Positions 6,088-56,124 of a DNA stretch of 64,000 bases are shown piece by piece; positions within the stretch are counted from its first letter, which is position 1, and every line of letters starts with the position of its first letter. This stretch comes from Closterium sp. NIES-65 (taxonomy: Eukaryota; Streptophyta; Zygnematophyceae; Desmidiales; Closteriaceae). Where the stretch lies: assembly GCA_948144175.1 (NCBI GenBank), contig CANXME010002327.1, forward strand, positions 2,312,001-2,376,000, in the 5' to 3' direction. The notes beneath the pieces were generated by a model. That model made no database searches and had not been told where the DNA came from. It saw only the letters and a list, made by a program, of their open reading frames with translations. A program made the position numbers and the translations under genes.

Positions 6088-6299
6088 CACCCCCATAGGC
6101 AAAGTGGGGGAGAACAAGGGGTCACAAGACCTGTCAAGCAAAGCAAAGCAAAGCAAGCTCAGGGTGGATCACAAAGTCACCACACAGTCCGAGCAAAACA
6201 ACAAGGCCACAAGGCCAGTTCACATGCAGGAGTACACATATATATATAGAGCTAGACAAGCAAGAGCAGGTATATATATGTGACAGTACAAGTAAGGTC

Positions 6300-9200
6300 A
6301 AGAGGAGAGCAAGTGAGGCAAGACAGGTACAAGACCCAGCTGAGTGCAGAAGCGCTGATGGTCACAAGGCGCGAGTGCCTTGGTGAACACATCAGCACTG
6401 TTGGCCTTAGAGGCCACGTACGCAAGCCGCAACTGTCCACGCTGCTGTAGCTCGCGAGCAAGGAAGTACCGGAGAGCAATGTGCTTCGTTCTGTGCTCCA
6501 CGCACTCCTCTCGACACAAGGCCAACATGGCCTTGTTGTCTACGAACAGCACAGGACAAGAACGAGGCGGCTCTCCAAGGTCAGTCAGCAGGTAGGTGAG
6601 CCAGCGAAGCTCCTGTGCAGCCATGGCCCCGGCGTAGATCTCAGCCTTACAACTGGAGCTGAAGACAGAAGACGAGCGAGTAGCCCGCCACGAGACAGAG
6701 CCGGAACCAAGGCTGAAGGTGTAACCCTATGACGACCGCTGCGTAGCCTGGTCGTCAGCCCAAGAAGCGTCCGCGTGTCCCGTAAGGACCACTGGACTCC
6801 GCCCTCCAAGCACTAGCCCCATGCCCGACGTACTGCACAGGTAGCGCAACACCCTCTTCGCCGCAGCCATGTGCTCTGGTTGGTGTCTCCCAGGAGCAAC
6901 ATAGCGTGCAAGAATGCTAAGAGGGTATGCAAGGTCAGGCCGTGTGCAGGTCATCAGATACATGAGACAGCCAACAAGCTCTGGGTAGGGCCACTCGACT
7001 CTACGGACTCATCCGAAGGCAGAGCTGAGAGCGAGTGGCAAGTAGACAGAGGAGTGGCCTGAGGCGAGGAGTACGTGAAGCTGAAGCGCTGAAGGACCTG
7101 CTGCACCATGTGTGACTGAGTCAAGGTAATGGTGCGGCGTGCTCTGTCCCGAGTGATCTGCAAGCCAAGATAGCTGCGCAGTTCACCAAGGTCTGTGCAC
7201 GTGTGTCTCTTCAGCAGCTCAGACTTCACGTAGGCGAGTCCAGCAGTGTCAGCTGTGGCAAAGACCAAGTCGTCGACGTACACGAGGATGTAGAACGGCG
7301 GCAGAGAAGTGTCGGTGCGCAGAAACAGCGACGGGTCAGCAGTAGAGGGAGCAAACCCAAGAGCCACAAGCGTAGTCCTCAGTGTGTCCTACCACTCACG
7401 TGGTGCCTGGCGGAGACCGTAGACTGGCCGTCGGAGGCTCCACTGGGTGCCAGGAGGGAAAATCCCAATGAAGCCAGGTGGACGGCGCAGCCAGATCTCC
7501 TCGTGCAAGCTACCCTGCAGCACCCGAAGAGTGGTCACCCGAAGAGTGGTCATCTTCGGGGTGGGAGAGAAGGTCTGAAAGTAGTCAACTCCCTGCCGCT
7601 GACTGAAGCCTCGAGCCACGTACCGCGCCTTGAAGACAGGTGGAGAGCCCGGCGGCCGCTTCACCCTGAAGATCCACATGCCACTGACGATGTTCGCCCC
7701 CGGAGGGGGAACCGCATCAACGTAGGTGCCTGTGGACTTCCAGGAAGCCATCTGTGCATCCATAGCTGCGTGCCACTGAGAGGAGTAGGGACCCTCTACG
7801 GCCTCCGCGTAAGAGCACGGAGTCGGGATGTCTAGTGCATCCGGGTCTCCCTCAGGGGCAAGTAGTACAGACGCGAGATGAGGTGAAGCAGCAGCCAGAC
7901 ACTGGAACTCCTCCTGCCTGTCCTCAAGGACGTCCGTGCCAAGAGCACACTCACCCCCGATAGACGGAGGACAGACAGACGCAGACTCAGTAACCAGACT
8001 GGCAGCGTAGTCTAGACGACAACGAGCAGCAAAGTCGACGAGCTCAGCAACAAGCGCAGACGCAGCAGTGGACTCAAACGAGAGGTCAGTGACGACAGTA
8101 GCAAGGAGACGCGTGACAGTAGGACTAGCAGCACGAAGAGAGTCCGACTCCGGGTCAGCAAGGGCAGGAAGAGAGGACTCAGGAGGAGAAGGCAAAGGGG
8201 CACGCAGAGTAGCAGTGGTCGGACGCAGAGACATCCGGTGCGTGCAAGGGACAGGAGGAGGACACTGACGCGAACCGAGACCACTAGCGCGAGAAGTACG
8301 AACAGGCGACGCGGGACGAGACGCAGGCTCACGACGCTCAGCAAGACCTCCAGTAGGACCAGTGTAAGGAGAGGGAGCAGGAAGTGGGGAGGTGGGCTCT
8401 AACTGTGACTGGGACTGGACAGGCGGTGGACTCTCTACAGGAGGAGAAAGACCAAGAACCTGCTGTAGGAGCGGAACGAAGTACGGCTGAGGCCGGGCGG
8501 GGACTCTAGGCACAGCAAGGACAGCACCAGCACCCTCAGCGGCAGCACTAGCGCCAACAGCACCTCCAGCTGCAGGACCGCCAGCAGCACCAGCAGCAGG
8601 ACCATCGCCAGGACAGACAGCAGCAGTCTCAGCACCAACATCCTTAGCAGCTCCAGCTCCAGTAGGACCCGCATGCCCAGCAGCTCCGGGACCGGCAGCA
8701 CCAGCACCCTCAGCAGTCCAAGAAGCTCCAGCACCAGCAGTGCGCCTCCAGCGACGAGCGAACCACTCGCGCAGCTCCTGTGGAGAGAGGGGCTCCCGCG
8801 GCGACGGAGCAGCCGAAGAACCTCCAGGCCCAGCACCGCCAGACGCCACTAGGGGAGGTCCAGCGGCCGGAGGCTCCGCACAGCCAGGCTCAGCAGCCTC
8901 AGACGCAGCACCCCCAGGCTCAGCAGCTCCCGACGTAGCACCCCCAGACTCAGCACCCCCAGGCTCAGCAGCTCCAAACGCAGCACCCCCAGGCTCAGCA
9001 CCCCCAGGCTCAGCAACCACGCGCATAGCACCCCCAGGCTCAGCACCCCCAGGCTCGTCACCCCTAGGCTCAGCACCCACGCGCACAGCACCCCCAGAGT
9101 CAGCACCCCCAGTCTCATCACCCTCCGCAGGACCAGAGTCACCATCAACCTCGACCGGCTCGACGGCGTCTACCTGGGACACACCTGAAGGGGCAGGAAC

Positions 9201-10950
9201 CTGAGGGGGGAGGGGGTCTACCGGGGGGGGACCTGGCACAAGGAAGTCCGGTGGCGGGGGGAGGGAAGGAGTGCGGTAGGGGAAGAGGCGGTAGAAGGGG
9301 ACTGACTCGTCGAACGTGACATCCTGGGAGGACAGAACACGACGAGAGGAGGGGTGGTAGAACTGCCACCCTGGAGCGTCAGGGGGGAAGCCAAGGAAGA
9401 CACAGGGAGAAGCACGGGGGGACAGCTTGTCCGCAGACAAGTCGCGGACAAACGCCCGAGATCCCCAGACACGGAACGCAGACGCATCGCCGACCTTCCC
9501 CGTCCACAGCAAGACTGGGGACATCGCGGGCCGAGAGACCCTGGGGTGAAGGTTGAGCTGATGCGCCGCGTACCGAACCGCAAACGGCCACAGAAAATGG
9601 GGGGCAGCCGCATGCATCATGGACGTACGAGCGACATCCATGACCATGCCAATGCGGCGCTCAGCAATCCCATTTTGCTGTGGAGAGTCCAAAAGCGTAA
9701 AGGTCTGGCGGATCCCCCGTGCACGAGAGTAGTCTCGTAGAAGGCGAGAGGAGAACTCCCCACCTCGATCAGAGTGCAGACGCTGAACAGGAAAGTCCGA
9801 GCCAAAGCTTCGCCTGAGCTGGAGACGAGCCTCGCGGATCCAGTCGATCGGCACCTCAGTGACATCACCCTTGCTGCGCAAGGGGAAGACTATGGTGTAA
9901 TGCGAGTAGTCGTCAACCACCAACAAGAAGTAGTGCTCATGACCCTGCCCACGAACGCGGGCCGGGCCCCACACGTCCATGTGAAGTGTCTGCAGAGGAG
10001 CCTCTGTCGGGGGAAACTGGGAGGAGTGAGGAGCAGCCCTGAGGCGCCCCTCGACACAGGGGACAGAGGAAGGTCCTGGTCCCGAAGGAAGGGGAGGGAG
10101 AGAGCGGGGAAGACCTCAGACAAGGACACGGGAAGCCATGCCCCGAAGACGGGGCAAGTAGGGGTGGCCAAGACGGTGGTGCCACAGGAGAGTCTCGTGA
10201 GACAGGAGGCGACACGAACAGGGGGGCAGACTCAGGGCCAGACCGGGACGCAGCAGCAAACACCTGACCTGACGCAGCTACCTGACCAGACGCAGGGACA
10301 GGAGGAGACTCAGTGGTCAGAGTGTAGAGGCTCGACCCCGGCCGACGCAAGAACGTGGCCAGGTGCCGGCCTGTGCGTGCGTCCGTGCAGTGGGTCACCC
10401 GCTGACTCGCAGGAGTGAACTGGTGAACCCCCGCATCCTGCAGGTCCACACCACTCACCAAGTTCGTCGAGAATGAGGGAAGGTACAGACCAGACAGGGT
10501 GCCCGAGGGGGCAGCCGGACATGGGAGGACAGTGGAAAAGTGAGAGAGGACAGGACCCCCAGAGGGGTCAGCCAGGGAGACTGCAACCGGCCGACCAAGC
10601 GGCGTGAGTGTGGTGCGGTCTCAAAAGAAGGAGCGGGAAGCTCCTGAGTCAAGCGTGAAAGAGAGGGAGGACGAAGCCGACGCAGTACCTGAAAGCGCAG
10701 CCTCACCAGTATCTGAGAGTGCAGACGCACTAGCACCTAGAGCAGCAGTCTCACAAGCACCTAGCGCAGCAGTACCAATGCCCGGGTCAGGCGGAAAACA
10801 CCGGTAACAGTCACCCTCCTCACTAATAGTCACAGCATACATAGCACCAAGAATAGCATCAAAGTCAAGATCAAAGATAGCTACACCAGCCCTAGACAGC
10901 TCTCCCCAGCGGGGAATCTCACTAGCCTCGGGGAACTGCTGACGCCAAGC
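6300..10950 (-). pseudogene. pol region of element C
   Basis: Reading on the minus strand from 10950: protease with 'TLDSGASRSFF' near 10640; a zinc-binding and integrase core section with 'DVWGPARVRGQGHE' and 'PQQNGIAERRIGM' (about 9980-9400); a long Pro/Ala/Gly-rich linker (about 9250-7850); reverse transcriptase with 'YVDDLVFAT' (about 7750-6970); and RNase H with 'AAQELRWLTYLL' (about 6960-6300). The order integrase before reverse transcriptase defines Ty1/copia. Several breaks are present. Confidence 0.88.
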
Positions 10951-12190
10951 GTCCGTCAAGCGGCCAAAGCAGCGCTGGGTGGGGTGGGCACCCTCACACT
11001 ACTCACCCGCGCGGTCGCCGGAACGAAGGACGTAGGCGCACGGACCAGTACCCCCACCCCTCTGACGCTGCGTGTACCACTCACGGAGCTGCTGAGGCGG
11101 AGGGATGTCCCGCGAACGCTGCTGCTGCTGCTGCTGCTGCTGGCGCTGACCACTACCAGAGCCGCTCCACTGCGGGGCACCACCCCGACCAGCTCCACCC
11201 CCACCGCCACCACCGCCTCCTCCTCCGCCTCCACCGCCGCCTCCACCCCCACTGCTGCCGCCACCACCGCCGCCGCCTCCGCCGCTGCCACCACCACCAC
11301 CGCCTCCGCCACTACTCCCACCGCCACCCCCACTCCCTCCGCCGCCTCCACCGCCACCTCCACCGCCCCCTCCAGCTCCACCCGCGCCCTTGCCCCCCTT
11401 GCCCTTACCAGAGCGGCGTCTCCCGCTAGGGGCAGACGTCGCGCCGACCGACTCAAGACCAAGCAGGTCGGCAACAGCAGCAGAGGCAACAGAGAGCAGC
11501 AGGGGGGAAGGAGAGCACCCCTCAAAGATGGGGGTGCAAGGGTCACCACGAGAGGCTCCTACAGCGACGATGCTCTTTTCCGCCGCTAGGAGGGCCTTCT
11601 CGAGGAGGTCGACAGTGAGGGTGGTGGGAGAGACTGAGAGAAAGTGGTCCCTGACTACGCGAAGGGAGTCAGGGAGGCGTGCGACTACGTAGTAGAGAGT
11701 GATGTACATGGGGGGGGGGTTCTTGGCGTAGAACTCAGCAGGAAGGGCGGCGCGGTAGCGAGTGTCACTAGTGCAGAGGTGCGTAACGAGGTCAGCGACA
11801 GTGAGAAAGGCAGTGAGGTCAGGAAAGAGGTACGGTAGCATGAGATGGCTCAGTGCAACAGTGGTAGGGGAAGAGTAGCGCGCAACTACAGCGTCGTACA
11901 AGGTCTGAGCACTCTTGTACTGACTAAAGTGCGCGCGCTCAGTGGTAGGGAGGTGGCGACGCACAGCAAGACGTGCAGCAGCATCGCGGGTGGCCCACTG
12001 AGAGCGAACAGTGGGGTCAGCATCAGCAGCAGGGGAAGGAGAGGCGCCAGAAGTGAGATCAAAGAGAGAGAGACCGTCCGCCCTATCGCACTGTAAGAAC
12101 AGCTGCAGGTCGTCGACCCAGACCTCAAAGTCAATGGCTCGACCCTCAGCGTCAAAAGCTAGGACACTAAGGGTAGCCAAGACGACGACA
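10950..12190 (-). pseudogene. gag region of element C
   Basis: The capsid-like section contains 'SVLAFDAEGRAIDFEVW' near its start and 'KSAQTLYDAVVARYSSP' further on. A Gly tract of roughly 60 or more residues (about 11380-11190) and a Gln run follow. Next is a cysteine/histidine cluster of spacing C-x13-C-x3-H-x4-C near 11000, where copia gag normally has a C-x2-C-x4-H-x4-C knuckle. The same unusual spacing is found in D and F, so it is a family trait and not decay. Confidence 0.8.
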
Positions 12191-12239
12191 GTGAAGCAGT
12201 GCAAGCAGTAGGGGAAGGGCACGCAGTGACAGCGGTACG

Positions 12240-13285
12240 GTGCTCACCGGGAAGGGCAGGTCAGGCGGCTCGGTAGAAGGGCGGCTCGGCGACTCAGCGA
12301 CTCGGCTGCTGGGCGGCTCGGCTCCTGGGCTGCTCGGCGGCAGGGCGGCTCGGGTGCAGTGCGGCTCGGCTGTCGGGCGGCTCGGGTGCAGGGCGGCTCG
12401 GGCGGGGCGGCTCGGCTGCCGGGCTGCTCGGGTGCAGGGCGGCTCGGGGGCACTGCTGCTCGGCGGTCCGGCGGCTCGGCGACTGCTGCTGGGCGGCTCG
12501 GCTGCTCCGGTACCGGGCGGCGTGACGGTCAGCTGCGCGGGCGGCGGGGCCGTGAGAGTAGGGGCGGCGGGACCGCGAGATCAGGAGCGGCGGGGCCGCG
12601 AGAGAAGGGGCGGCGGGGCCGGAAGATCAGGAGCGGCGGGGCCGCGAGAGCAGGGGCGGCGAGAGCCGCGAAAGCAGGAGCGACGGGGCCGCGTGTAGGG
12701 GCGGCGGTGTCGCGTAAGAAGGGGCGGCGGGGCCGCGACAGCAGGGGCGGCGGGGCCGCGAGCAGCGGGCGGCGGGGCCACGGGAGTAGAGGCGGTGAGG
12801 GCCGCGAGCGGCGGGGCCGCGACAGCAGAGACGGCGGGACCGCGAGCAGTGGGCGGCGGGGTCGCGAGAGAAGAGGCGGCGAGGGCCGCGAGTGGCGGGG
12901 CCGCGACAGCAGGGGCGGTGGGGCCGCGAGCAGTGGGCGGCGGGGCCGCGAGAGCAGAGGCAGCGAGGGCCGCGAGCGGCGGGGCCGCGACAGTCGGGGC
13001 GGCGGGGCCGCGAGAGCAGGGGCGGCGAGGGCCACGAGTGTAGAGGCGGGGAGGGCCGCGAGCAGTGGGCGGCGGAGCCGCTAGAGCAGGGGCGGCGAGG
13101 GCCGCGAGTGGCGGGGCCGCGACAGCAAGGGCGGCGGGGCCGCGAGCAATGGGCGGCGGGGACGCGAGTTCAGGAGCGGCGGGGCCGCGAGGGCAGGGGC
13201 GGCAGGGCCGCGATCGAGAGGCCGGCCGCTAGGGCGGCTCGGTGAGAGGTTGGCCCGAGGCGCGACTCGGGATGAGTGCGCTTCG
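12240..13285 (-). repeat. GC-rich minisatellite leader of element C
   Basis: Between the 5' LTR and gag lies about 1 kb of GC-rich repeats built from GGCGGGGCCGCGAG-type words on the plus strand (densest 12540-13200), then a run of about 15 A (plus strand) beside the GGTGGGCCC block. Open frames here arise only because stop codons are rare in such sequence. Confidence 0.75.
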
Positions 13286-13361
13286 GGCAGGAAAAAAAAA
13301 AAAAAGGAGTCGAGTGGTGGGCCCTAGGCGCAATTCCCACAGGGGAACCTGCTCGATACCA

Positions 13362-13489
13362 TGAGAAGAACTGAACGAGAATGGAAATGACTAAGTGAAA
13401 GTTGGGTACAAATACAAACCCTAGAAAGTTGTTCCCCATATGTGCTACCCCACTATAGCCTACAACAGCTTTGTCATACATATCTGACA
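13362..13489 (-). repeat. 5' LTR of element C
   Basis: 128 bp, paired with 5960-6087. The minus-strand primer-binding site TGGTATCGAGCAGG lies at 13361-13348, directly downstream of it in element orientation. Confidence 0.9.
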
Positions 13490-13744
13490 TGCAGATCACC
13501 CGGGACAGAGCACGCCGCACCATTACCCTGACTCAGTCACACATGGTGCAGCAGGTCCTTCAGCGCTTCGGCTTCACGTACTCCTCGCCTCAGGCCACTC
13601 CTCTGCCTACTCGCCACTCGCTCTCAGCTCTGCCTTCGGATGAGTCCGTAGAGTCGAGTGGCCCGTACCCAGAGCTTCTTGGCTGCCTCATGTACCTAAT
13701 GACCTGCACACGACCTGACCTTGCATACCCTCTTAGCATCTTGG
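13490..13744 (+). pseudogene. pol region of element B, resumed after element C
   Basis: After the duplicated TGCAG the reverse transcriptase of B continues ('TLTQSHMVQQVLQRFGF', then 'CTRPDLAYPLSIL') and then passes abruptly into LTR sequence. The RNase H section found in A, C and D is not seen here. Confidence 0.8.
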
Positions 13745-13818
13745 GTACACATTTCTAGGGTTGCATATTTGTACCACTTTTATTCCTTAGTGCAGTCATT
13801 CTCGTTTCAGTCTTCTCA
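13745..13818 (+). repeat. Partial 3' LTR of element B
   Basis: It matches the last 74 bp of the 5' LTR at 1030-1103 with about two differences and ends TTCTCA. The LTR's first part is missing. Confidence 0.75.
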
Positions 13819-14126
13819 ATATCATAATTTTTTAACACAAATTGTGCTTTTTTAAATTGTGTATTGTCAAAGCGAAGCTGCTTGTACTGTACAATTGGCA
13901 TCGTCGAAGCGCGCTTAACGCCCTTCTCCAACTACAAAAACCGTGGGTTGGAGTTCATTTCCCTCCACCCACGTTTCTCGATTTTCGAACGGCTCACTCA
14001 ACATTCCCACCACCCACCCCGGAGTAAACCGCCTTGCTAATGCCACTTGGATAGGGTACATCTTAGCTAGTGTTATTCGATTGCACTAGCTTGTGTTCTA
14101 CGTTGATGCAAATGTTGTTATAAGCC

Positions 14127-25730: not shown

Positions 25731-25734
25731 TCCT

Positions 25735-26113
25735 CCAATCAGAGCTTCCAAGAGTGCGACCGAGTGGTAACCGGCTGCTGCAGCATCTTCTCCTCTTCCA
25801 ACGCCACCATCCCCATATGGCTCGGATCCTCCAGCATCATTTTCGCCACCCCAGATCCTCCGCCATTCATCCCTGTTCACCTCCAACTTGCCCAAACACA
25901 TAAGCCTCACCACATCTCAGACCAGCACCCTTTCCCCTATCCCAAACCCAAAACCCCCTCTCCCTTCGTCCTCCTCCCCGTTAAATCAGAGCTTCCAAGA
26001 GTGCGACCGAGTGATCACCGGCTGCTGCAGCATCTTCTCCTCTTCCAACGCCACCATCCCCAGATGGCTCAGATCTTCCAGCATCATTTTCGCCACCCCA
26101 CATCCTCCGCCAT
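25735..26113 (-). repeat. Two downstream copies of the last invertase exon edge
   Basis: The coding end of exon 11 (the part for '[14 protein letters not shown]' through the stop) plus flanking sequence is repeated twice downstream with a period of about 248 bp (copies end near 25986 and 25738). They still read much like the exon, but they lie past the functional stop codon. Confidence 0.85.
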
Positions 26114-26232
26114 TCACCCCCGTTCCCCTCCAGCTTGCCCATACACATAAGCCTCACCACATCTCGGACCAGCACCCTTTCCCCTACCCCAAACCCACAA
26201 CCCCCTCTCCCTTCGTCCTCCTCCCCGTCAAA

Positions 26233-27499
26233 TCAGAGCTTCCAAGAGTGTGACCGAGTGATCACCGGCTGCTGCAGCATCTTCTCCTCCTCCAACGCCA
26301 CCATCCCCAAATGACTCGGATCCTCCAGCATCATTTTCGCCACTAGGTACCCCGCCACGCTCCACGTCTGCTGCTTGCGCGCCTGCTTCCCCACATACCG
26401 CCCGAGCTTCCCATCGTAGTACTCAGGCCAGTTGTCCCGTGAGAGTCTCTTTTCCGCCACGTCTATTGCCCGGCGCGCAACGTGTGGGCGGCCCACTTTG
26501 ATGCTCGCAGCCGTGAGCATCCACAGCAGCACTGGCGGGGGGGAGTGGGGTGAGTGGGGGGATGGCACAGGGGACAAGGCATGGCAGGGAGGGGGGAGCA
26601 CGGGAGCGGAGATAACACGGAAATCATTGATGCCAGGGGATGGACTGGAGGGGTGTGACAATGGCATGCTTCCCGTCATAGTACTCCGGCCAGTTGACCC
26701 GTGAAAGTCTCTTCTCCGCCACGTCAATTGCCCGGCGCGCCATGTTGGGACGACCCACTGCTGGCAGCCATGAGCATCCACAGCAGCACTGGCGAGGGGG
26801 GTGGGAGGGGTTGTGGGGGGGAGAGGGGGGGGGAGGATACGAGGGTTTGTGGGGAGTGGGATTAGGAACCCGTGTTCTTCGGATCGCACCCCGTCGTGAT
26901 CCTCCACTCATGCCCCTCCAAGAAAGAGTAAGTCACCTCCAGCAACATCTCCCCTATAAGCCACTTCAATACACTCAAAGCTCACCTTGTTACTCAAATT
27001 TCACCTCGTTACACATAAATTCAACCTCATTACATTGTCACACGACTCACCCGGCCACGACCCTCCGTTGTGGTAGCTCCACCGGGTGTTCTTCGGATCA
27101 CACCCCGTCGTGATCCTCCACTCATGCCCCTCCAACGCAGGGTAGGTCACTTTGAGCGGCATCTCCCCTATAAGCTCGTCCCAGCGCTCCTCTATAAGGT
27201 CCATGATTGCTGCCGCCTGCTCGCCCGTTGCCATGCAGGAGAGGATGGCAATGCAGTTGCCCAGGGTGAACCAGCTGGTGGAGTAGGTTGATTTGGTAAA
27301 GGTAGGGATATGGGGCGAAGCAGCAGAAAGCAGTGAGAAGAGGAAACAGACATTGGAGCCACCTCGCTTCTTGCTTGCCATGCAGGAGAGGATGGCAACG
27401 CAGTTGCCCAGGGTGAACCAGCTGAGAGCAGGGTTGGGGTTGGGGCTTGTTTGACAGGGGGGGGGGGGGAGTTGGGAGGGGTGGATCGAATCAACAGGA

Positions 27500-27535
<36 letters not shown>

Positions 27536-30500
27536 ATTTCTTGCAGCCTGTGTTGCCCGTTTCCATGTAGGAGGGGACGGCAGCGCAGTTGCCCAAGGTG
27601 AACCACCTAAGATGGGGGAAGGAGAGGGTGGGGGAGGTTGGTGGGGGGGCTTGGGGCTCGTTTGGCAGGGGAACGGCATTGCGTCGACTTAACGGAAAAG
27701 AGCCACACACTTACCGGCTGTGTTGCCTGTTGCCGCGCAGGAGAGGACGGCAATGACCCACCAAGCACAGCACTCACTGGAAGTCCATGCGGGCGGGCAA
27801 GACGTTTCCAATGAAGCATCCTCCCTTGAGCGGCATGAAGTCAAAGAGCCAGTCGGTTACGTTTGAGTGTTACGTCTCTACCAGGAGCCACCTGAGTGTT
27901 ACCTAGGTGAGCGCCACAGGCAAGCGAACTAGGACGCCTCCAAGCCAGCTCACCGGAAGTCCATGCGAGCGGGAAAAAACGTTTCCAATGAAGTACCGTT
28001 TTCTCCCTTGAGCGGCATGTAGTCAAAGAGCCAGTATGTTACACCTCTACCAGGAGCCACCTGAAATGTTACCTAGGTGCGTGCGTGCCCCTGGCAAGCA
28101 AACCAGGATGCCTCCGAGTGAACTCACCGGAAGTCCATGCGAGCGGGGGAAACGTTCCCAATGAAGTAGCCGCCCTTGAGCGGCATGAAGTCAAAGAGCC
28201 AGTCGGGGATGGATTCGGGGATGACGTTGAACTTGTTCACCGCCGTGTGTGAATACTCCTCCGTCTTGTACCGGTATATGCTGTTCAGCTGCTCGTGATC
28301 CAGCCTGGGGAGGAGAGGGATGAGAAGAGAAGGAAGGCGGCAACGAAAGAGGGAGAGAGAGGGTCGGGAGGTTGGGTGAATACTCCTCTGTCTTGTACCG
28401 GTATATGCTGTTCAGCTGCTCGTGATCCAGCCTGGGTGGTGGTGGGACGAGGAGGAAAGAGGGAAGGAGAGGTGGGATGGGGAGAGTGGAGGGAAGTGGA
28501 TGGTGTGATGGGATGAGCCTCTTGTTGATACGGTCCAGCAGACAGCATAGCATACCCCCTCAGCAGCCAAACAGTAAGTACTTCACCCCCACCCTCCCCA
28601 ACACACACACGCACCAGAAGTAGGTGCGCATGTGGAAGGTGAGGGCAGTGAGGCGCTTGTCAATGCGGCAGGTCTGCCCTCAGCAGCGACCGCGCCCCCC
28701 TCCCCCTCCCCCTCCCCACACCAGAAACACAGCGCCCCCGTAGACCACCAAACGGGACCCCCACGCACCAGCAAAACAGCGTCCCCCTTACAGCAGCCAA
28801 ACAGTAAGCCCCCAAACCAGCAAGAAAGCCCCTCACAAGCCCTCCCGCCCCCCTCATTTACCCACCAAAAGTAGGTGCGCATGTGGAAGGTGAGCGCTAT
28901 GAGGCGCTTGTCAATGCGGTCCAGCAGGTCCTTGTTTATCGGCAGGTCCGCCCGAAGCAGTGAGCGCGCCACTCTCAGTGCCATGTAGAACAGTGATTGG
29001 ATCTCTATCGGGTACCCGTAAATGCCCTATAACGAGGATAAGGACACGGAGGGGGGGGGAGAGGGGAAGGATGAAAAAAAAAAGATGGTAATTTTTTTCA
29101 TCAGATCATTCTGGATCGTCCCTCCCCCCCCCCCTCTCCCCCCCTCTCCTCCCATCTACACATGTCCCCTTCCTCCCATCCCCATTCCTCCCTCCCCCAT
29201 AGACCCCCACTCGTCTCTCACCATGCGTCGATCGATCATGCAGCAGCCATCAGCACATAGCAGCGTGGGGAAGGTGTCAAACCCATCCGCCAGACACAGG
29301 TCGAGAATCAGCCTCATGCCCCTCTGGCAGTCCGGTGAGTCGGCCAACGCTTGATCGCCTGCAAGCAAGGGAGGGAGTGAACGGAACCGAGAATGTGTGA
29401 ACTGGGGTGTCAAACCCATCCGCCAGACACAGATCCAGGATCAGCCTCATGCCCCTCTGGCAGTCCGGTGAGTCAGCCAACGCTTCTTGCTTCGCGCTGC
29501 GCCCGACACCAGAAGCTGCTGTCCACAGGGAGGGGCCACACGCCCGATAGCGCTCTCCCCAAAGTTGGCCATCATAATGTCTGTGCCTCAAAACGCACCC
29601 ACATCAGCATGTGCTCACACCGGAAAAACAGCAGCACCCACCCACCTATGGCTTTCACATACGCACGCAGCAGGAAGATCCACCAGAAGCTGCTGTGGAC
29701 CGGGGCCACACGCCCGATAGCACTCTCCCCAAAATCAGCTATCATGGTACCTCCCACATGCACGAGCATCAGCATGTGCTTACACGGGGCAAACAGCAGC
29801 ACTGCACACTCACCTGTGGCCTTGACGTAAGCGCGAAGAAGGAAGATCCACCAGAAGCCACTGTCAACGGGGGCCACACGCCCGATAGCGCTCTCCCCAA
29901 AGTCAGCTATCATGGTGTCGGTGCCGCGCTTCGGGTCGTGCAGAACTTTGAAGGACGCGGGCATGACTCCTTCCCCTAGAGTGAACACGTCCACCCGCTT
30001 CTCCCACGCCTGGTGCTCGGGGGTTGGGGGGTTGGCGAAGGGGAGGACAGGGGATTACAGAGGAAAAGGGAAGGAAGGTTGCCTTGGAATCAGCTGAAGT
30101 CCTTTTCCTGGAAAGGAGAGGGAGCACAAGAGTGCTCTCCTCAAAGTCGGCTATCATGGTGTCGGTGCCGCGCTTCGGGTCGTGCAGAACTTTGAATGAC
30201 GCGGGCATGACTCCTTCCCCTAGAGTGAACACGTCCACCCGCTTCTCCCACGCCTGGTATGTGTCGGGGGGTGGGTGTGTTGATGCGTGTCAGGGGGCGT
30301 GTGAGGAGGGGTTAAGGGGTTGAGGCGCCTCAAGGGTCGTGCAGAACTTTGAAGGACGCGGGCAAGACTCCTTCCCCTAGAGTGAACACGTCCACCCGCT
30401 TCTCCCACGCCTGGTATGTGTCGGGGGGTGGGTGTGTTGATGCGTGTCAGGGGGCGTGTGAGGAGGGGTTAAGGGGTTGAGGCGCCTCAAGGGTCGTGCA

Positions 30501-33500
30501 GAACTTTGAAGGACGCGGGCAAGACTCCTTCCCCCAGAGTGAACACGTCCACCCGCTTCTCCCACGCCTGATGTGTGTGGGGGGTGGGTGTGGGTTGGGG
30601 GGGAAGGGGGGTGTTTGAGGGAACAAACAGGAACATTTGCCCTCTCAGGAGTGTGAAGGGTCGTGCAGCACAGTGAAGGGCGCGAGCACGACTCCTTCCC
30701 CTAGAGTGGAGTGAACACGTCTACTCACTGCCTGGTGTGTTTTGAGGCGCCTCAAACCACACCTAGAGTGAACGCGTCTACCCACTGCCCGGTGCGTGTG
30801 TGGTGTGGGGAGCAGGGGTGAGAGATTCACAGATGGGAAGGGAAGGAAGCGGGGATAGGAGAGGCAGTGGCGGGTACCCGTCTGAAGGTCTCCTCTCCTC
30901 TAGCTACTAGAGGCGGGTACCTGTCTGCAGCTCTAGGAGCTAGAGGAGAGGAGACCCTCAAGACCTTCCGCCTGCTCTATATCTTATCACTGATCTACCC
31001 GCCTGCAGGCAGAGGGTCTCGAGGCGGGCATTGTCGACGATGCAGTGATCCCCGTTGATAAGAACGACCGCCCCCACGCGATGGCCTCTCTTGGTACCAA
31101 GAGAGGCTCGTTCACTCGCTTACCCCCACGCACGCCCATCACTCCAGCGGTTTCCCACATGCAGCTTGCACCTGCACTTTTTCCTTCCCACATGCGCGCC
31201 CATCTCTCTGCCGGTTTACCAGCTGCAGAGCTCTAACAGTTACCTGCAGGGCTTTTTCTCTATCAGTCTTCTCTAATGCTTACCTGCAGCCGGAGCGTCT
31301 TGAGGAGGAAGTTCTCGACGATGCTGTGCTCCCCGTTGATCAGAAACGCCAGCGCGCTCGGCACAAAGTCACGCACAAACACCTGCAGAGGGGGGGAGGG
31401 AGAAAGAGAGAGGAAGCGTGGAAGAGGGCGACGGAGGGAGGGGGGGTTGGGGGGGTGGAAGAGTGGGGGTGTGTGAGCAGGGAGCAGGGAAACGGAGGGG
31501 AAAGAGGCTGGCAGAGTGACAACAGCTTGTAACTGTACCTTCTTCTTCCCTTCCTCCTCCAAACCAGCTCATACCTGGTCGTAGTTCAGAGCCGACTCTG
31601 TGTTGTCCAGCAGCGATTGTCCCCGGGCTTCCCCCAGAAGAGAAAGCTGTGCCCTACCTCCCTTTTTCTCTCTTTTCCCCCTCCCATACATGCCTGGTCG
31701 TAATTCAGAGCCGACTCTGTGTTGTCCATGGCAGCAATGGTCCCCATGGGCTTCCCCCGGAAGGAAAAACTGTGCCCTACCTCCCCCTTTTCTCCTCTCC
31801 CCTCTCTACCCCTTCCAATCAACTCATACATACCTGGTCGTAGTTGAGAGCCGACTCTGTGTTGTCCATGGCAGCGATGGTCCCCACGGGCTTCCCCCGG
31901 AAGGAAAAACTGTGCCCTACCTCCCCCTTTTCTCCTCTCCCCTCTCTACCCCTTCCAATCAACTCATACATACCTGGTCGTAGTTGAGAGCCGACTCTGT
32001 GTTGTCCATGGCTGCGATGGTCCCCACGGGCTTCCCCCGAAAGAGCACCAGGGAGCGCCTCAGCACGTCCCACGCGTCCCCCACCATCTGATCCACCATA
32101 AAAGCTGCCGAGCCTCTCGCCGATCCCATGGGCGTGGTCAGGCCGGACCGGATGGTCAGGCTGGGCGGGTGGGGGGAAGGAGAGGGGTAGATGGAGGGGA
32201 GGAGGAGGAAGAGGGGGTCGCAAAACATGGGCTCGGGGAGGGATTGAATGCAGACTTCAGGGTTTTACGGAAAAAAAAAAGGACAGAAACAACAAAGATC
32301 GTGACTGTGTGTGTGAAGAAGAGATGGAGAGAGTGAGAGTTGGAAAGGAGCGAGCAAGAGGGCGAAGGCAAGTGTGTAGCAGGAGCAGGAGAGGGTACCT
32401 GGGGGAGTAGTGCCGGGGAGAGTGCGCTGCAGACCGAACACTGCCAGTCAGAGACACACACAGATAGAAGAGAGGTAGAGGTTTCACGGATGGAGATGGT
32501 GGGGTAGAGTTGGGTGCGGTGGGGAGCGTTTTCTGAGTCGACTCAAACGTCACGTCAAGAAGAGTGCGCTGCAGATCAAACGCTATCAGCCACAAACACG
32601 GGCAAAAGGATAGAGGTTTCATGGACGGAGTTGGTGGGTTGGTGGGTGACTTGATGGGCAATCGAGAGAGGAAGGCGGGGAAAGGGCGTTATGGAGTAGG
32701 GGAGGAGGAAAACTGGCAGAGATGGGGGAGAGAGCGCTGCTGAGAAGTAGTTACACTTTGAACTTTGAAGAGAGGGAGTAGCTTATCAAGCTGTATTACA
32801 GCACAGGGACTGACATCGTGTGTGTTCGGGGAGAGAGGGGGGAAGAGAGCTACTGACTGAGGGGTGGTGAGACGAGTGAGACTTGGTTTTCAGAACAGGA
32901 CAGACAGACAGACTGGCTGATGGAGGCGAGTTGAGTAAGAGGGCTGGTGAGGGAAGCTTTGAAAAAAAAAAAATGTATATATATATATATATATGTATAT
33001 ATATTCTTTGGGTCCATGTCAGCACAGGGACAGAAGTGTTGGGACAGAGAGACTGGCTTACTTGGGTGTGTGGTGGTGGCGTGGGGAGTTTGTTGCTGAT
33101 CGAGCACTGAGAGAGGGAAGAGAGGAGGGAGAAGGGAGGGGGGAGAAGGGAGGGGGGGAAGGAGGGGTAGGAGAGAGAGGAGAGTGAGAGGAAGTTGTCT
33201 TGCATGTCAGTTTGTTAGATTGCATTGTGAGCTAGTCGTGACTTGCCTGGCCTGGCTAGATCCTTCGAGGAGAGTGAAATCAATATACGGACCATTTGAG
33301 GAGAGTGAGGGGGGGCAAATAGAGGCGGGAGGGGGGTTCAGGGGAGTGTGATATGGCGGAGAGCAGGGGTTGAGAAACAGCGGGTAGAGCTCAGTAGAGA
33401 GCATGTGTAACACGAGATGAGTTACACCAAATGAGTAACCTGAGGGGCATACGTGGGAGTGAGCACAACGGGTTCCATGTCATCTGTGCTGCTCAAGGGA

Positions 33501-34524
33501 CAGCATAGAGCACAGGGTAGAGAAAAGGATAGCGCACAGCAGCGTCCAGGTATTGGTACCACAACAGGTTCCATGCATCACGATTCACTAATTAACATAC
33601 GTGGGAGTGAGCACAACGGGTTCCATGTCATCTGTGCTGCTCTGCGCGGGCGCGTGCCGCCCATCCGCCCCCGCCTCCTCCCCCTTCTCCTCCCCCTCGC
33701 CCTTACCCCTGCCCTTCCCCCGCCCGCCTGCCCCCGCCTTCCCGCTGGGAGCCGTTTCCCCCTCGCGGTCAAGGTCCCATGCGCTCATGCGCGGCTGTGG
33801 CGGCAGTGGGGAAGCGGGGACGAAGGGGGGAGGGGGAAGTTAGATGGAGGAAGAGCGATTGGGGGAAGGGGGAAGAGGGAAGGGGAAGGGGGAAGCGGGT
33901 AGGAGGAAGGGGGAAGCAAGAAGGGGGAAGAGGGGGCCAGAAGGGAGAAGGGGAAAGTCAGGGGGGGACTGTGGGTAAAGAGAAAGGATAGAAATGGCGC
34001 AGGCGGGAGAGGAAGGTAGAAGGGAGAACCAAGAGGGAGAAAGGGAAACAGGGCTGGCAACAAGGCGGGAGAGCAGGATGGGATTTGCACATTGTTTCTG
34101 TACTTTTATATATGTACATCTTATAAATATTAGAGATTTCATGCTTTTTGTTTCAGTTTCCTCGCACCTGATTCAAGCTGACCGACAGCTTCTTCATTCG
34201 AAGCTTCAACAATCCGCCATACATCTTATCTTCCTCCTCGTCCTCCTCGTCCGTCGCTCCGCTTTCATCCCTCCCGGCCACCTCTGCAGACTGCTGCCGA
34301 CCAAGCTCCCGCTGCTGTTGCGGGGACGTCTTCTCCCCGCCGTTTTCCGCCTTCTCCCCGCCGTTCTCCGCCGCATCCCCACCTTCCGCTGCTCCTTTCC
34401 GCTCACCTTCTCCGCCTGGCAGCCGAATTTCCCACGGCCTTCCCCCGGTCTTCTCCGCGCGCGCAGCAGCTTCCGCGGTTTCTGCGCCCAGCCCCATGCC
34501 GTTTCCGCGGGCTTCCATGCTCAT
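26233..34524 (-). CDS. Alkaline/neutral invertase (GH100), 11 exons
   Basis: Hydrolyses sucrose to glucose and fructose; the acidic N-terminus has no transit or signal peptide, so it is probably cytosolic. Exons (minus): 34524-34168, 33794-33601, 32440-32399, 32160-31974, 31382-31284, 30009-29814, 29358-29222, 29026-28866, 28304-28128, 27274-27051, 26531-26233. Every junction is GT-AG, all phases agree, and the sum is 2073 nt (690 residues plus stop). Residues 1-185 are low complexity. From about 200 the match to plant GH100 is continuous: '[20 protein letters not shown]', '[18 protein letters not shown]', '[15 protein letters not shown]', '[16 protein letters not shown]', '[17 protein letters not shown]', '[10 protein letters not shown]', '[17 protein letters not shown]', '[20 protein letters not shown]'. 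The Asp of 'PVDSGFWW' and Glu of 'GHEWRI' are, from family knowledge, the likely catalytic pair. No exon is broken. Exons 1-3 are the least certain; the introns carry many decayed exon copies. Confidence 0.92.
26665..26963 (-). repeat. Echo copies of exon 10 end and exon 11 start in intron 10
   Basis: 26963-26865 repeats the '[17 protein letters not shown]' part of exon 10. 26795-26665 repeats the start of exon 11 including its CCAG acceptor and 'NWPEYYDGK', with a small deletion and several differences. Both are on the gene's strand. They are not needed for the frame of the full exon set. Confidence 0.85.
27360..27770 (-). repeat. Echo copies of exon 10 start in intron 9
   Basis: The first ~50-60 bp of exon 10 ('WFTLGNC...ILSCMA') with its acceptor recurs at about 27423-27360 and 27605-27545, and in a more decayed form at about 27770-27710. 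An AAAG microsatellite (about 27500-27537) sits between copies. Confidence 0.8.
27778..28035 (-). repeat. Two echo copies of exon 9 end in intron 9
   Basis: The 3' part of exon 9 ('[17 protein letters not shown]' to 'ARMDFR') with its donor recurs at 28035-27949 and 27863-27778. The nearer copy is the closer match. Confidence 0.85.
28380..28701 (-). repeat. Echo copies of exon 8 end and exon 9 start in intron 8
   Basis: 28701-28613 repeats '[16 protein letters not shown]' of exon 8, and about 28550-28505 a shorter piece ('LDRINKRLI'). 28434-28380 repeats the acceptor and first ~50 bp of exon 9 ('[18 protein letters not shown]') exactly or nearly so. Confidence 0.85.
29407..29757 (-). repeat. 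Echo copies of exon 6 end and exon 7 start in intron 6
   Basis: 29757-29645 repeats the 3' half of exon 6 ('[11 protein letters not shown]...[10 protein letters not shown]') with a donor-like end. 29580-29520 repeats a shorter part. 29493-29407 repeats '[20 protein letters not shown]' of exon 7. Confidence 0.85.
30125..30795 (-). repeat. Array of exon 6 start copies in intron 5, 157-bp period
   Basis: The acceptor and first ~75 bp of exon 6 ('[15 protein letters not shown]...KVLHDP') recur at about 30252, 30409 and 30566 (starts), exactly 157 bp apart. Two more decayed copies lie at about 30725 and 30785. The copy nearest the true exon is longest (to about 30130). The 30252-30566 units are almost identical, so they arose recently. 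Confidence 0.9.
31010..31107 (-). repeat. Decayed copy of exon 5 in intron 5
   Basis: CTGCAGGCAGAGGGTCTCGA and its continuation match exon 5 (31284-31382) along most of their length with many substitutions; the minus strand still resembles '[11 protein letters not shown]'. It is the oldest-looking echo. Confidence 0.7.
31570..31960 (-). repeat. Three copies of exon 4 end in intron 4, 140-bp period
   Basis: The last part of exon 4 ('[21 protein letters not shown]') with donor GTATG and about 70 bp of intron recurs with starts 140 bp apart (units ending near 31961, 31821, 31681; a shorter fourth piece 120 bp further). The units next to the true exon are nearly identical. Confidence 0.9.
32545..32593 (-). 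repeat. Echo copy of exon 3 in intron 2
   Basis: CTGCAGCGCACTCT and the sequence upstream resemble the start of exon 3 (32440-32399). This supports exon 3 as a real unit that shared the duplication history, although both pieces are short. Confidence 0.55.
33447..33499 (-). repeat. Echo copy of exon 2 end in intron 2
   Basis: The last ~45 bp of exon 2 ('[11 protein letters not shown]') and its donor recur about 154 bp into the intron, with a GTATGC donor-like end. Confidence 0.8.
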
Positions 34525-47449: not shown

Positions 47450-47580
47450 TGAGGAAACTAGAACGAGAATGAATGAACTATGAATGAAGTGAGTACAAAT
47501 ATGAAACCCTAATAGGTTGTACCCCCTATGGGATACCCCACTATAGCCTACACAACAGCATAAGCTATAATGTTCTGACA
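47450..47580 (-). repeat. 3' LTR of element D
   Basis: Minus strand begins TGTCAGAACATTATAGC and ends TTTCCTCA. The polypurine tract TGCCTATGGGGGTG precedes it in element orientation (47581-47594). Confidence 0.93.
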
Positions 47581-47789
47581 CACCCCCATAGGCAAAGTGG
47601 GGGAGAACAAAGAGTTACAAGACCAGTCAAGCAAAGCAAAGCAAAGCTCAGGGTGGATCACAAACTAACCACACATTCCGAGCACAAGTTCAAAGGTCAA
47701 AAGGCCAGTTCACATGCAAGAGCACATATATATATATAAGAGGCTAAGCAAGCAAGAGCAGGAGTATATATATGTGACAGTACAAGCAA

Positions 47790-50700
47790 GGTCAAGAAGT
47801 GAGTAAGTGAGGCAAGACAGGCACAAGACCCAGCTGAGTGCAGAAGCGCTGATGATCACAAGGCGCAAGTGCCTTGGTGAAGACATCAGCAGTGTTGGCC
47901 TCAAAGGCCACGTACGCAAGCCGCAACTGTCCACGCTGCTGTAGCTCACGAGCAAGGAAGTAGCGGAGAGCAATGTGCTTTTTCCTGTGCTCCACTCGCT
48001 GCTCTCGACACAAGGCCAGCATGGCCTTGTTGTCTACGTATAGGACTGGAGGAGAACGAGGCGGCTCTCCAAGGTCGGTCAGCAGGTAGGTGAGCCAGCG
48101 AAGCTCCTGGGCAGCCATAGCCCCGGCGTAGATCTCAGCCTCACAACTGGAGCCGAGAACAGAAGACGAGCGGGTAGCCCGCCACGAAATAGAGCCGGAA
48201 CCAAGACTGAAAGTGTAACCCTGTGACGACCGCTGCGTAGCCTGGTCGTCAGCCCAAGAAGCGTCCGCATGCCCAGTGAGGACCACTGGACTCCGCCCTC
48301 CAAGCACTAGCCCCATGCCCGACGTATTGCACAAGTAGCGCAACACCCTCTTCGCTGCAGCCATGTGCTCTGGTCGGTGTCTCCCAGGAGCAACATAGCG
48401 TGCAAGAATGCTAAGAGGGTATGCAAGGTCAGGTCGTGTGCAGGTCATCAGGTACATGAGGCAGCCAACAAGCTCTGGATACGGGCCACTCGACTCTATG
48501 GACTCATCCGAAGGCAGAGCTGAGAGCGAGTGGCGAGTAGGCAGAGGAGTGGCCTGAGGCGAGGAGTACGTGAAGCCGAAGCGCTGAAGGACCTGCTGCA
48601 CCATGTGTGACTGAGTCAGGGTAATGGTGCGGCGTGCTCTGTCCCGGGTGATCTGCAAGCCAAGGTAGCTGCGCAGTTCACCCAGGTCAGTGCACGTGTT
48701 TCTCTTCTGCAGCTCGGACTTTACGTAGGCGAGTCCAGTAGTGTCAGCTGTGGCAAAGACCAAGTCGTCGACATACACGAGGATGTAGAACGGCGGCAGA
48801 GAAGTGTCGGTGCGCAGAAACAGCGACGGGTCGGCAGTAGAAGGAGCAAACCCAAGAGCCGCAAGTGTAGTCCTCAGTGTGTCGTGCCACTCACGTGGCG
48901 CCTGGCGGAGACCGTAGACTGGACGCCAGAGACTCCACTGGGTACCAGGAGGGAAAGACCCAGTGAAGCCAGGTGGACGGCGCAGCCAAATCTCCTCGTG
49001 CAGGCTGCCCTGCAAGAAAGCAGTGCTGAAGTCGAGAGAGTGCAGCTCGTAGTCACGGTGAGCAGCAACGTGCAGCAGTACCCGAAGAGTGGTCATCTTC
49101 GGGGTGGGAGAGAAGGTGTGAAAGTAGTCAACTCCCTGCCGCTGACTGAAGCCACGAGCCACGTAACGTGCCTTAAAGACAAGCGGAGAACCCGGCGGCC
49201 GCTTCACCCTGAAGATCCACATGCCACTGACGATGTTCGCCCCAGGAGGGGGGACAGCGTCAACGTAGGTGCCTGTGGACTTCCAGGAAGCCATCTCTGC
49301 ATCCATAGCTGCCTGCCACTGAGAGGACTAGGGACCCTCTACGGCCTCCGCGTAAGAGCGCGGAGTCGGGATGTCTAGTGCATCCGGGTCTCCCTCAGGA
49401 GCAAGCAGTACAGACGCAAGATGAGGTGAAGCAGCAGCCAGACACTGTAACTCCTCCTGCCTGTCCTCTAGGACGTCCGTGCCAAGAGCACACTCACCCC
49501 CGACGGACGGAGGACAGACAGACGCAGACTCAGCAACAAGACTAGCAGCGTAGTCTAGACGACAGCGAGCAGCAAAGTCGACGAGCTCAGCTACAAGAGC
49601 AGACGCAGCAGTGGACTCAAAAGAGGGGTCAGTGACGACAGTAGCAAGCAGACGCGTGACAGTAGGACTGGCAGCACGAAGAGAGTCCGACTTCGGGTCG
49701 GCAAGGGCAGGAAGAGAGGACTCAGGAGGAGAAGGCAAAGGGGCATGCAGAGGAGCAGTGGACGGACGCAGAGACATCCGGTGCGTGCCAGGGACAGGAG
49801 GAGGACGCTGACGCGAACCGCGACCACTAGTGCGAGCAGCACGAACTAGCGACGCAGGATGAGACGCAGGCTCACGACGCTCAGCAAGACCCTCTATCGC
49901 CTCTGCGTAAGAGCGCGTAGTCGGGATGTCCAGTGCATCCGGGTCTCCCTCAGGGGTAAGCAGTACGGACACGAGATGAGGAGAAGCAGCTGCCAGACAC
50001 TGGAACTCCTTCTACCTGTCCTCAAGGACGTCCGTGCCAAGGGCACACTCACCCCGGACGGACGGAGGACAGACAGACTCAGACTCAGCGACAAGACTAG
50101 CAGCGTAGTCTAGGCAACAGCGAGCAGCAAATTCAAGGAGCTCAGTAACGAGGGCAGACGCAGCAGTAGACTCGAAAGAAGGGTCAGTGACGACAGTAGC
50201 AAGGAGACGCGTCACAGTAGGAGTGGCAGCACGAAGAGAGTCCGACTCCGGGTCGGCAAGAGCAGGAAGAGAGGACGCAGGAGGAGAAGGCAAAGGGGCA
50301 CGCAGAGGAGCAGTAGACGGACGCAGAGACATCCGGTGCGTGCCAGGGACAGGAGGAGGACGCTGACGCGAACCGCGACCACTAGCGCGCGCAGCACGAA
50401 CAGGCGACGCAGGATGAGACGCAGGCTCACGACGCTGAGTAAGACCTCCAGTAGGACCAGCGTAGGGAGAAGGAGCAGGCAAAGGGGAGGCAGGCTGTAG
50501 CTGTGACTGTGACGGGGCAGGCTGTGGACCCTCTAAGGGAGGAGGAGGACCAGTAGAAGGTGGAAGACCAAGAACCTGCTGCAGGAGTGGAACGAAGTAC
50601 GGTCGAGGCCGCGCGGCGACGCAAGGAACAGCAGGGATAGCACCAGTACCCCCAGGAGGAGTACCCGCTCCAGCAGCACCTCCTGCAGCTCCAGAACCTC

Positions 50701-52900
50701 CAGCAGCACCAGGAGCACCCCCAGCAGGACTGCCAGTGGTAGTCTTAGCGCCAACACCCTCAGCAGCACCAGCTCCAGAAGTACCCGCAGGCCCAGCAGC
50801 TCCAGTACTCCCAGTAGGAGCACCTCCGGGACCCGCGACAGCAGCACCCTCAGTAGCCGAAGAACCTCCAGCACCAGCAGCACGGCTCAAGCGTCGGGCA
50901 AACCACTCGGGCAGCTCCTGCGGGGAGAGTGGCTCCCGGCGAGACGAAGCACCCGGAGAACCTCCAGGCGGAGTACCTCCAGGCTCAGCACCCCCAGGCA
51001 AAGCACCCCCAGGCGTAGCACCTCCAGGCAAAGCACCCCCAGGCTCAGAACCCCCAGGCTCAGCACCCCCAGGCTCAGCACCCCCAGGCTCAGCACCCCC
51101 AGGCGTAGCACCCCCAGGCTCAGCACCCCCAGGCCCAGCACCCCTAGGCTCAGCACCCTCAGAAGCACCAGAGTCACCAGTGACCTCAACAGACTCGACC
51201 GCGTCTACCTGGGACACACTTGAAGGGGCAGGACCCTGAGGGGGGAGGGGGTCTACCGGGGGGGGACTTGGTACCAAGAAGAGCGGGGGCGGGGGGAGGG
51301 ACGGAGTGCGGTAGGGGAAGAGGCGGTAGTAGGGGACCGACTCGTCGAACGTGACGTCCTGGGAGGACAGAACACGGCGAGAGGTGGGGTGGTAGAACTG
51401 CCACCCAGGCGCGTCGGGGGGGAACCCCAGGAAGACGCAAGGAGCAGCGCGAGGGGACAGCTTGTCCGAAGACAAGTCGAGGACAAACGCCCGAGATCCC
51501 CAGACCCGGAACGCCGACGCATCGCCAACCTTCCCCGTCCACAGCAGGGCTTGGGAGGTCTCCGGCCGGGAGACCCTGGGGTGAAGGTTGATCTGATGCG
51601 CCGCGTACCTGACCGCAAACGGCCACAGAAAATGGGGGGCAACCGCATGCATCATAGACGTACGAGCGACGTCCATGACCATGCCAATGCGGCGCTCAGC
51701 AATCCCATTTTGCTGTGGTGAGTCCGGAAGCGTGAAGGTCTGACGGATGCCTCGTGCACGATAGTAGGCTCGCAGAAGGCCAGAGGAGAACTCTTCGCCT
51801 CTGTCCGAGTGCAGACGCAGAACAGGAAAGTCCGAGCCAAAGCTCTGCCTGAGCTGGAGACGAGCTGCGCGGATCCAGTCGATCAGCACCTCAGTGACAT
51901 CACCCTTGCTGCGCAAGGGGAAGACTGCGATGTAACGCGAGTAGTCGTCAACTACTAGCAGGAAGTAGCGCTCGTGACCCTGTCCACGGACGCGGGCTGG
52001 GCCCCACACGTCCATGTGAAGCGTCTGCAGCGGGGCCTCTGTCGGAGGAAACTGGGAGGAGTGAGGGGCAGCCCGCTGGAGCCCCTCGACACAGGGGACA
52101 CAGGTAGGGCCAGGCCCTTGAGGAAGGGGAGGGAGGGACCGGGGAAGACCAGAAACAAGAAAACGGGAGGCCATGCCTCTGAGACGAAGCAGAGAGGGGT
52201 GACCAAGGCGGTGGTGCCAGAGGAGAGTCTCGTGAGACAGGAGACGACACGAACAGGGGGCAGACTCAGGACCAGACCTGGACGCTGCAGCAAACACCTG
52301 AGTTGGTGCAGTGACCCTACCAGACTCAGTAACGGGAGGAGACGCAGTGGTGAGTGTGTACAGGCTCGACCCTGGCTGACGGGTAAACGTAGCCAGGTGT
52401 CGGCCTTTGCTAGCCTCTGTGCAGTGCATCACCCGCTGACGAGCAGGAGTGAACTGGTGGACACCCGCATCCTGTAGGTCAGCACCACTCACCAAGTTCG
52501 TAGAGAACGAGGGGAGGTAGAGACCAGACAAGGTGCCAGAGGGAGCCGCCGGACACGGGAGGACTGTAGAGAAGCGAGACAGGACAGGACCCCCAGAGGG
52601 GTCAGCCATGGACACCGCAACCAGCCGACTAAGCGGCGTGAGTGTGGTGCGGTCTCGAAAGAAGGAGCGAGACGCCCCAGAGTCAAGGGTGAAGGTGAGG
52701 GAGGCCGAAGCCTACGTAGTACCTGAGAGCGCAGACTCACCAGTACCTGAGAGCAAAGATGCACTGGCACCTAGAGCAGTAGCCTCACTAGCACCTAGGG
52801 CAGCAGTACCAATGCCCGGGTCGGGCGGGAAACACCGGTAACAGTCACCCTCATCACTAAAAGTCACAGCATACATGGCAGCAAGGATAGCATCAAAGTC
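47790..52900 (-). pseudogene. pol region of element D
   Basis: In order on minus: protease region; 'ETLLWHHRLGHPSLLRLRG' of the integrase zinc-binding part; the catalytic core with 'DVWGPARVRGQGHE', 'DDYSRYIAVFPL' and 'QQNGIAERRIGM'; a long Pro/Gly-rich linker; reverse transcriptase with 'YVDDLVFAT'; and RNase H with 'ADVFTKALAPCDHQRF' at the end. Best-preserved copia pol in the window, with a few breaks. Confidence 0.9.
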
Positions 52901-54201: not shown

Positions 54202-54239
54202 GACACCAGTAGACTAGCAGTAGTGACTGTAGGACAGGG

Positions 54240-55300: not shown

Positions 55301-55333
55301 AACCGTTCCCACGAGGGAACCTGCTCGATACCA

Positions 55334-56115: not shown

Positions 56116-56124
56116 TATTTTATA

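Follow-up and report, generated by a model that had tools for sequence, protein, structure and literature searches.

Recurrent partial copies of exon edges in the introns of a Closterium invertase gene and of other genes of the same genome resemble a dense form of exon stuttering

Extra exon-like copies in introns are a familiar product of whole-exon tandem duplication and of mutually exclusive exons. Small tandem duplications at staggered breaks were reportedly described by Vaughn and Bennetzen in 2014 and by Schiml et al. in 2016. They are also the subject of Schimmel et al. 2021, whose available text gives overhangs of about 50 bp (PMC8355091). The closest described system has been named exon stuttering for avian dot chromosomes and was defined in chicken (Hron et al. 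2026, PMC12954441). In the part of that report available to us, 190 of 5,572 annotated dot-chromosome introns are affected, the median exon part in chicken is 36 bp, and the source lies at the exon border, in over 90% within 1 base in chicken. The same text includes purely intronic repeat expansion and extensive intraspecies variation of intron length in avian stuttering, ties the phenomenon to GC-rich, highly recombining small chromosomes, leaves the mechanism open, and states that sequence stuttering was not found in other vertebrates except in GC-rich gerbil genes. A full-text search for the term returned PMC12954441 only, and we found no case in the literature outside birds and gerbils. 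The available text of the Closterium genome paper (PMC10407611) does not mention copies of this kind. Here, we describe such copies in a gene of Closterium, a zygnematophycean alga. The first-pass annotation of this locus knew of no named process for them; as far as the available text of Hron et al. goes, exon stuttering, named in 2026, now supplies one (PMC12954441).

The window, which is the whole stretch of DNA that was analyzed, comprises 64,000 nucleotides of contig CANXME010002327.1 of Closterium sp. NIES-65 (assembly GCA_948144175.1; 874 Mb in 2,400 contigs). It contains a GH100 alkaline/neutral invertase gene of 12 coding exons on the minus strand, at 34524-26233, identified by splicing and by its best protein match, the 705-aa P0001 of Closterium sp. 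NIES-64, from which one substitution was noticed (E for D, exon f). The exons, named 1 to 4 and then a to h, are exon 1 (34168-34524), exon 2 (33601-33794), exon 3 (33062-33106), exon 4 (32399-32440), exon a (31974-32160), exon b (31284-31382), exon c (29814-30009), exon d (29222-29358), exon e (28866-29026), exon f (28128-28304), exon g (27051-27274), and exon h with the stop codon (26233-26531). When spliced, they give a frame of 2118 nt free of internal stops, and all 11 introns are GT-AG, so that a complete GH100 exon set has been kept, as first annotated. Large repeats at 1-14000 and 47450-63000 resemble transposable elements flanking the gene-bearing middle of the window; among them are a direct pair with 87% identity (8927-12271 and 50962-54293) and several inverted copies.

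In at least 7 of the 11 invertase introns (2-3, a-b, b-c, c-d, e-f, f-g, and g-h), and in the 3' flank as well, the edge of the neighboring exon is partly copied on the same strand; we call these copies echoes. This agrees with the seven introns and 3' flank originally named, under an intron numbering of that reader's own, and the count becomes 8 of 11 with a weaker exon 4 echo in intron 3-4. All echoes lie on the minus strand. The 3' end of exon 2 (42 bp) recurs together with the donor GTATG as 47 identical bp at 33448-33494. The weak echo at 32561-32648 joins intron 3-4 to 22 bp of the exon 4 5' edge (73% identity, spacing 132 bp). Exon a has three echoes of its 3' edge with the donor position, at 31903-31834, 31763-31694, and 31642-31575 (spacing 121-140 bp), and exon b has one of its 3' edge at 31003-31078 (77% identity). 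The 5' part of exon c is echoed four times within 30124-30729, at 30253-30124, 30410-30325, and 30567-30482 with the acceptor, and at 30729-30658; a fifth echo, of 25 bp, is at 30786-30762. Intron c-d carries two echoes of the exon c 3' part, at 29748-29646, which reaches the donor, and at 29587-29507, as well as one of the exon d 5' part (exon bases 7-86; 95% identity) at 29406-29485. An echo of the exon e 3' edge (28615-28668, 93% identity) is accompanied by weaker copies at 28702-28666 and 28541-28496, and in the same intron an echo of the exon f 5' edge with its acceptor (28373-28431, 97% identity) has a counterpart in the paralogue. Intron f-g contains two echoes of the exon f 3' edge (28035-27954 and 27856-27779) and three of the exon g 5' part (27421-27352, 27605-27536, and 27755-27714). 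Intron g-h contains an echo of the inner and 3' part of exon g (26872-26961, 88% identity), ending 35 bp before the donor, and one of the exon h 5' edge with the acceptor (26668-26788). Downstream, two tandem copies of the exon h 3' end plus 3' flank, with a unit of about 250 bp, occupy 25734-26146. Between the exon b and exon c echoes, in the longest invertase intron, there is an imperfect 78-bp palindrome (30883-30960). Identity between echo and exon is 76 to 97%, and 100% over the 47 bp at exon 2; because it spans such a range, the process is recurrent, as was originally suggested.

We examined how specific these copies are for neighbor and strand. A self-comparison, of the type for which the first-pass annotation had called, gave direct matches down to an E value of 1e-130, and the inverted matches listed were palindromes or C/T-rich. 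In a Smith-Waterman comparison of invertase exons with introns (score of at least 21), 24 sense matches fell in the 3' flank or in an intron next to the source exon and a single one in a non-adjacent intron, and there were 8 antisense matches, all stemming from exons 1 and 2; the densities per million cell pairs were 9.8, 0.07, and 0.50, respectively. We then compared the 36 introns, without flanks, of four genes (the invertase, its paralogue, CCT5, and CCT7) at a threshold of 22, which yielded 64 sense matches in adjacent introns and 1 in a non-adjacent one, along with antisense matches in adjacent (4) and non-adjacent (2) introns (in that order, 10.4, 0.04, 0.65, and 0.08 per million cell pairs). 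These four genes were not randomly picked, the invertase having been chosen by the earlier reader for its echoes; CCT7 is partial, being annotated over 6 exons only, and for the paralogue, CCT5, and CCT7 the exon ends are approximate, having been placed by tblastn. When the four genes were screened by blastn under the avian study's settings and its threshold of 42.1 bits, without that study's repeat filter and manual review, there were 56 matches in adjacent introns, all of them sense, and none elsewhere, with 20 of the 36 introns affected. Ten sequence shuffles under these settings reached a maximum of 26.3 bits. These comparisons confirm that the echoes exceed chance similarity and that the observation is real.

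The geometry of the copies was uniform in the four genes. Copies of 3' edges lay downstream of their exon and copies of 5' edges upstream in 64 of 64 cases; a tandem duplication across the border must give that layout, and the insertion of stray patches need not. A complete exon with both splice sites was never duplicated (0 of 64). The copy reached the exon end within 1 bp in 48 of 64 cases and within 15 bp in 57, and the exon part had a median of 57 bp with the avian-screen settings and of 70 bp by Smith-Waterman. Tandem units that are still intact and combine exon with intron or flank are found at exon a (140 bp), at exon h (about 250 bp, two extra copies), and at CCT5 exon 8, and GT or AG is retained at 14 of 16 echo splice sites inspected. 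In a wider chaperonin set, 59 of 61 sense matches fit the polarity by a hand count over family-matched exon parts only. The two misfits are in C1626 core 3 (66% identity, 1.9 kb away) and in C1657 core 5 (near mid-exon), and two further matches, both in C1727, are antisense.

Next, we polarized the differences between exon and echo with the same-architecture paralogue on contig C947 (L009) as the outgroup. Over 25 alignments, in which some edges are represented by several copies, changes at codon positions 1/2/3 numbered 47/39/41 on the echo branch (chi-square P of 0.66) and 1/0/33 on the exon branch, with 3/1/38 not assignable. When each of the 12 edges was represented by a single echo, the totals, added by hand, were 19/19/21 and 0/0/19, respectively. 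Since echo changes are indifferent to codon position and exon changes are not, the echoes, judged by their substitutions, decay neutrally like non-coding DNA, with the exons under constraint. A first impression that the differences were mainly synonymous, and the echoes therefore coding, was rejected in that the third-position excess belongs to the exon branch. A paralogue origin of the echoes was rejected too: in 25 of 25 alignments, the echo resembled its own exon more closely than that of the paralogue. Taken together, the polarity, the lack of codon bias in the echoes, and the wide range of divergence support the original reading, in which exon/intron borders were repeatedly duplicated in local tandem and selection kept one copy.

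Some young echoes behave differently. Those of exon 2, the exon f 5' edge, the exon d 5' part, and the exon e 3' edge match well over the exon part only, and the intron part of the presumed unit is no longer similar, a loss that does not easily fit clock-like decay. The exon f 5' echo and that of the paralogue (L009 5298-5356) apparently share a breakpoint, yet the latter carries the codons of its own exon, hinting at possible gene conversion between exon and echo or at re-duplication.

Intron length follows the number of echoes. Across the 36 introns, length is 253 + 144 bp per echo (r of 0.92, slope of 144 ± 10, Spearman coefficient of 0.84); without the intron that holds a long array, the slope is 150 and r is 0.88, and the slopes of the individual genes are 122 to 176. 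Echo number accounts for about 85% of the variance in intron length, or about 77% without the one long array, and the median length is 564 bp with echoes and 218 bp without. In 56 local duplication clusters from eight gene loci, the median duplicated unit, taken as the copy spacing, is 144.5 bp. This value matches the slope, so one echo adds about one unit. Because the two values agree, and because the same introns have almost no non-adjacent or antisense matches, we argue that the copies make the intron length, rather than that long introns merely give copies room. In the genes examined closely, echoes thus account for the greater part of the variation in intron length. Some introns are long without scored echoes; invertase intron 3-4 measures 621 bp with just the weak echo and no scored one. 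An echo dated against its constrained exon is a built-in clock, by which the rate, the unit size, and the cause of intron lengthening become measurable.

The pattern is not peculiar to the invertase. In the paralogue, each of four in-gene clusters is at an exon edge, and local duplications, as well as overlapping family rows, are present in a second GH100 gene (C60, with a near-identical copy in C1901). This gene also contains a 15-bp minisatellite (L010, reverse complement, 4992-5709), which is 30 bp longer than in C1901. The analysis of other genes in this genome that had been suggested revealed echoes in five of five chaperonin loci (L032-L036); those on C43, C1626, and C1052 already showed echoes in family rows when picked, and those on C1727 and C1657 did not and were positive as well. 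By eye, family rows with extra overlapping pieces occur in at least 3 of about 11 chaperonin genes and at least 2 of 4 phosphorylase genes, and a phosphorylase gene free of such rows (C1642) is compact. In one CCT5 intron (L032, reverse complement, 5211-6640), the first 57 bp of exon 8 recur in 11 extra copies, 96 to 100% identical, in steps of 122 to 124 bp; judging by match offsets, the C1794 copy of CCT5 departs from it in this region by about 22 bp. Close direct duplications, one or more per stretch, occurred in all of twenty background stretches of 10 kb (L012-L031), evenly spaced on two contigs rather than random, and close inverted ones in 1 of 20. The density of clusters per 10 kb was 8.95 in the eight gene loci, several of them picked because they had echoes, versus 2.15 in the background.

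We also compared recent gene copies. In the compared stretches of three copy pairs of this one genome, there was no gain or loss of a unit, and changes were confined to minisatellites. A unit change suspected from offsets of 134 and 148 bp was not confirmed, the difference between C2050 and C244 being mainly a 22-bp minisatellite; nor was one between C2400 and C1640, where half of the interval was compared and contained no such change.

Given these results, the echoes are with high probability survivors of recurrent local tandem duplications that join an exon and the adjoining intron. A duplication of mostly 120 to 170 bp (range seen, 84 to 295 bp) would have one end in an exon and the other in the intron next to it, in either order. 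The gene body would retain one complete exon, and the intron would acquire a partial edge, in many cases including a splice site. With the original splice site presumably still usable, the event would be tolerated, the intron would be one unit longer, and the extra edge would afterwards decay neutrally. Duplications inside an exon or over a whole exon would alter the mRNA and presumably be purged. Long repetition could then build introns up from a base of about 250 bp, with 144 bp more for each echo. The cause at the DNA level is probably fill-in at staggered breaks followed by end joining. Duplications of that origin are direct and tandem like the echoes and are a plausible molecular source of them; however, the Closterium units of about 145 bp exceed the overhangs of about 50 bp, and the available text reports no relation to exon borders (PMC8355091).

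Whether exon edges are targeted or merely survive and remain visible is a separate question. It is possible, if somewhat doubtful, that duplications start preferentially at exon-intron borders, through chromatin, polymerase pausing, or nucleosome-sized units, and are not just filtered afterward. An exon edge is included in 35 of 36 in-gene clusters by hand assignment, and the single unique-intron cluster compares with 9.3 expected from random allowed duplications on present-day gene structures (P of 2e-4) and with 7.2 to 9.2 once the faster decay of intron copies is modeled (P of 0.0002 to 0.003). Units are also narrow in the gene loci, 38 of 56 lying within 120 to 170 bp versus 11 of 43 in the background stretches. 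However, introns that were shorter at the time of older events would have forced units to include exon, the cluster count is biased by low-complexity filtering, hand assignment, and gene choice, and a threshold of splicing compatibility could remove short units. Two CCT duplications first listed as exon-free proved to be exon echoes after more exon mapping, which weakened the case for exon-independent duplication. On balance, the data lean weakly toward targeting, and random placement plus a filter may be incomplete as the sole account, given 1 of 36 unique-intron clusters against about 7 to 9 expected. A further and rather unlikely extension would be that intron growth throughout the genome of this lineage is driven mainly by duplication, targeted to exon edges, of one nucleosome-sized unit (about 145 bp), through a mechanism that does not depend on transposons and operates across birds, gerbils, and streptophyte algae.

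Other origins fit less well. Dispersed templated insertion, in which patches of exon are copied into nearby breaks, would account for young echoes that match over 47 to 80 bp only, with unrelated DNA between copy and source; the polarity of 64 of 64 and the evident tandem units of exon a, exon h, and CCT5 exon 8 make it improbable. Still less probable are remnants of whole-exon tandem duplication or of alternative, mutually exclusive exons. The GT or AG kept at most echo splice sites would suit them, but full-exon copies are absent among the 64, and the changes in echoes are neutral with respect to codon position. Noisy long-read assemblies can stutter, and the length differences between recent copies are minisatellites, as an assembly artefact might produce; assembly error is nevertheless unlikely, and in our estimate barely credible, because the copies differ in sequence, by up to 24% and with a neutral pattern, and because separately assembled gene copies share the local direct duplications. 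A NIES-64 protein, P0005, likewise contains the paralogue's exon a echo.

Recurrent tandem duplication across exon borders is thus the reading that we compare with exon stuttering, as described in the available text of Hron et al. (PMC12954441). Both involve partial lateral copies of exons with a splice site, in direct tandem and in the adjacent intron only, with the coding exons intact and from one to many copies, and the echoes score under the settings of that screen. In Closterium, 20 of 36 introns in four non-random genes are affected versus 190 of 5,572 annotated dot-chromosome introns, the exon parts are longer (median of 57 bp with the avian-screen settings versus 36 bp in chicken), and there is one dominant unit of about 144 bp with a linear relation to intron length. 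The exon-border source shows the same tendency at a lower rate, 48 of 64 within 1 bp compared with over 90% in chicken. Where the avian case includes intronic stuttering, the possible counterparts in Closterium are the one unique-intron cluster of 36 and a 22-bp minisatellite between exons in a chaperonin stretch. Where it includes length variation, the partial stretches compared between three recent copy pairs within a single genome show minisatellite changes and no unit change. The avian setting is one of GC-rich small chromosomes, and the Closterium contigs are unplaced, with a GC content of 0.60 to 0.62 in exons and 0.57 in the background stretches. The Closterium pattern therefore looks like a much denser version of exon stuttering in a streptophyte alga. 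A phenomenon named in 2026 for bird microchromosomes would then extend to the algae that are sister to land plants, in a form tied to intron size.

Echoes also matter for annotation. The public NIES-64 model P0005 reads the paralogue's exon a echo, so that MRSGFTTPSGA appears twice, and part of an intron as coding (L009, about 2600-2850), which is either an annotation error or a real exonization.
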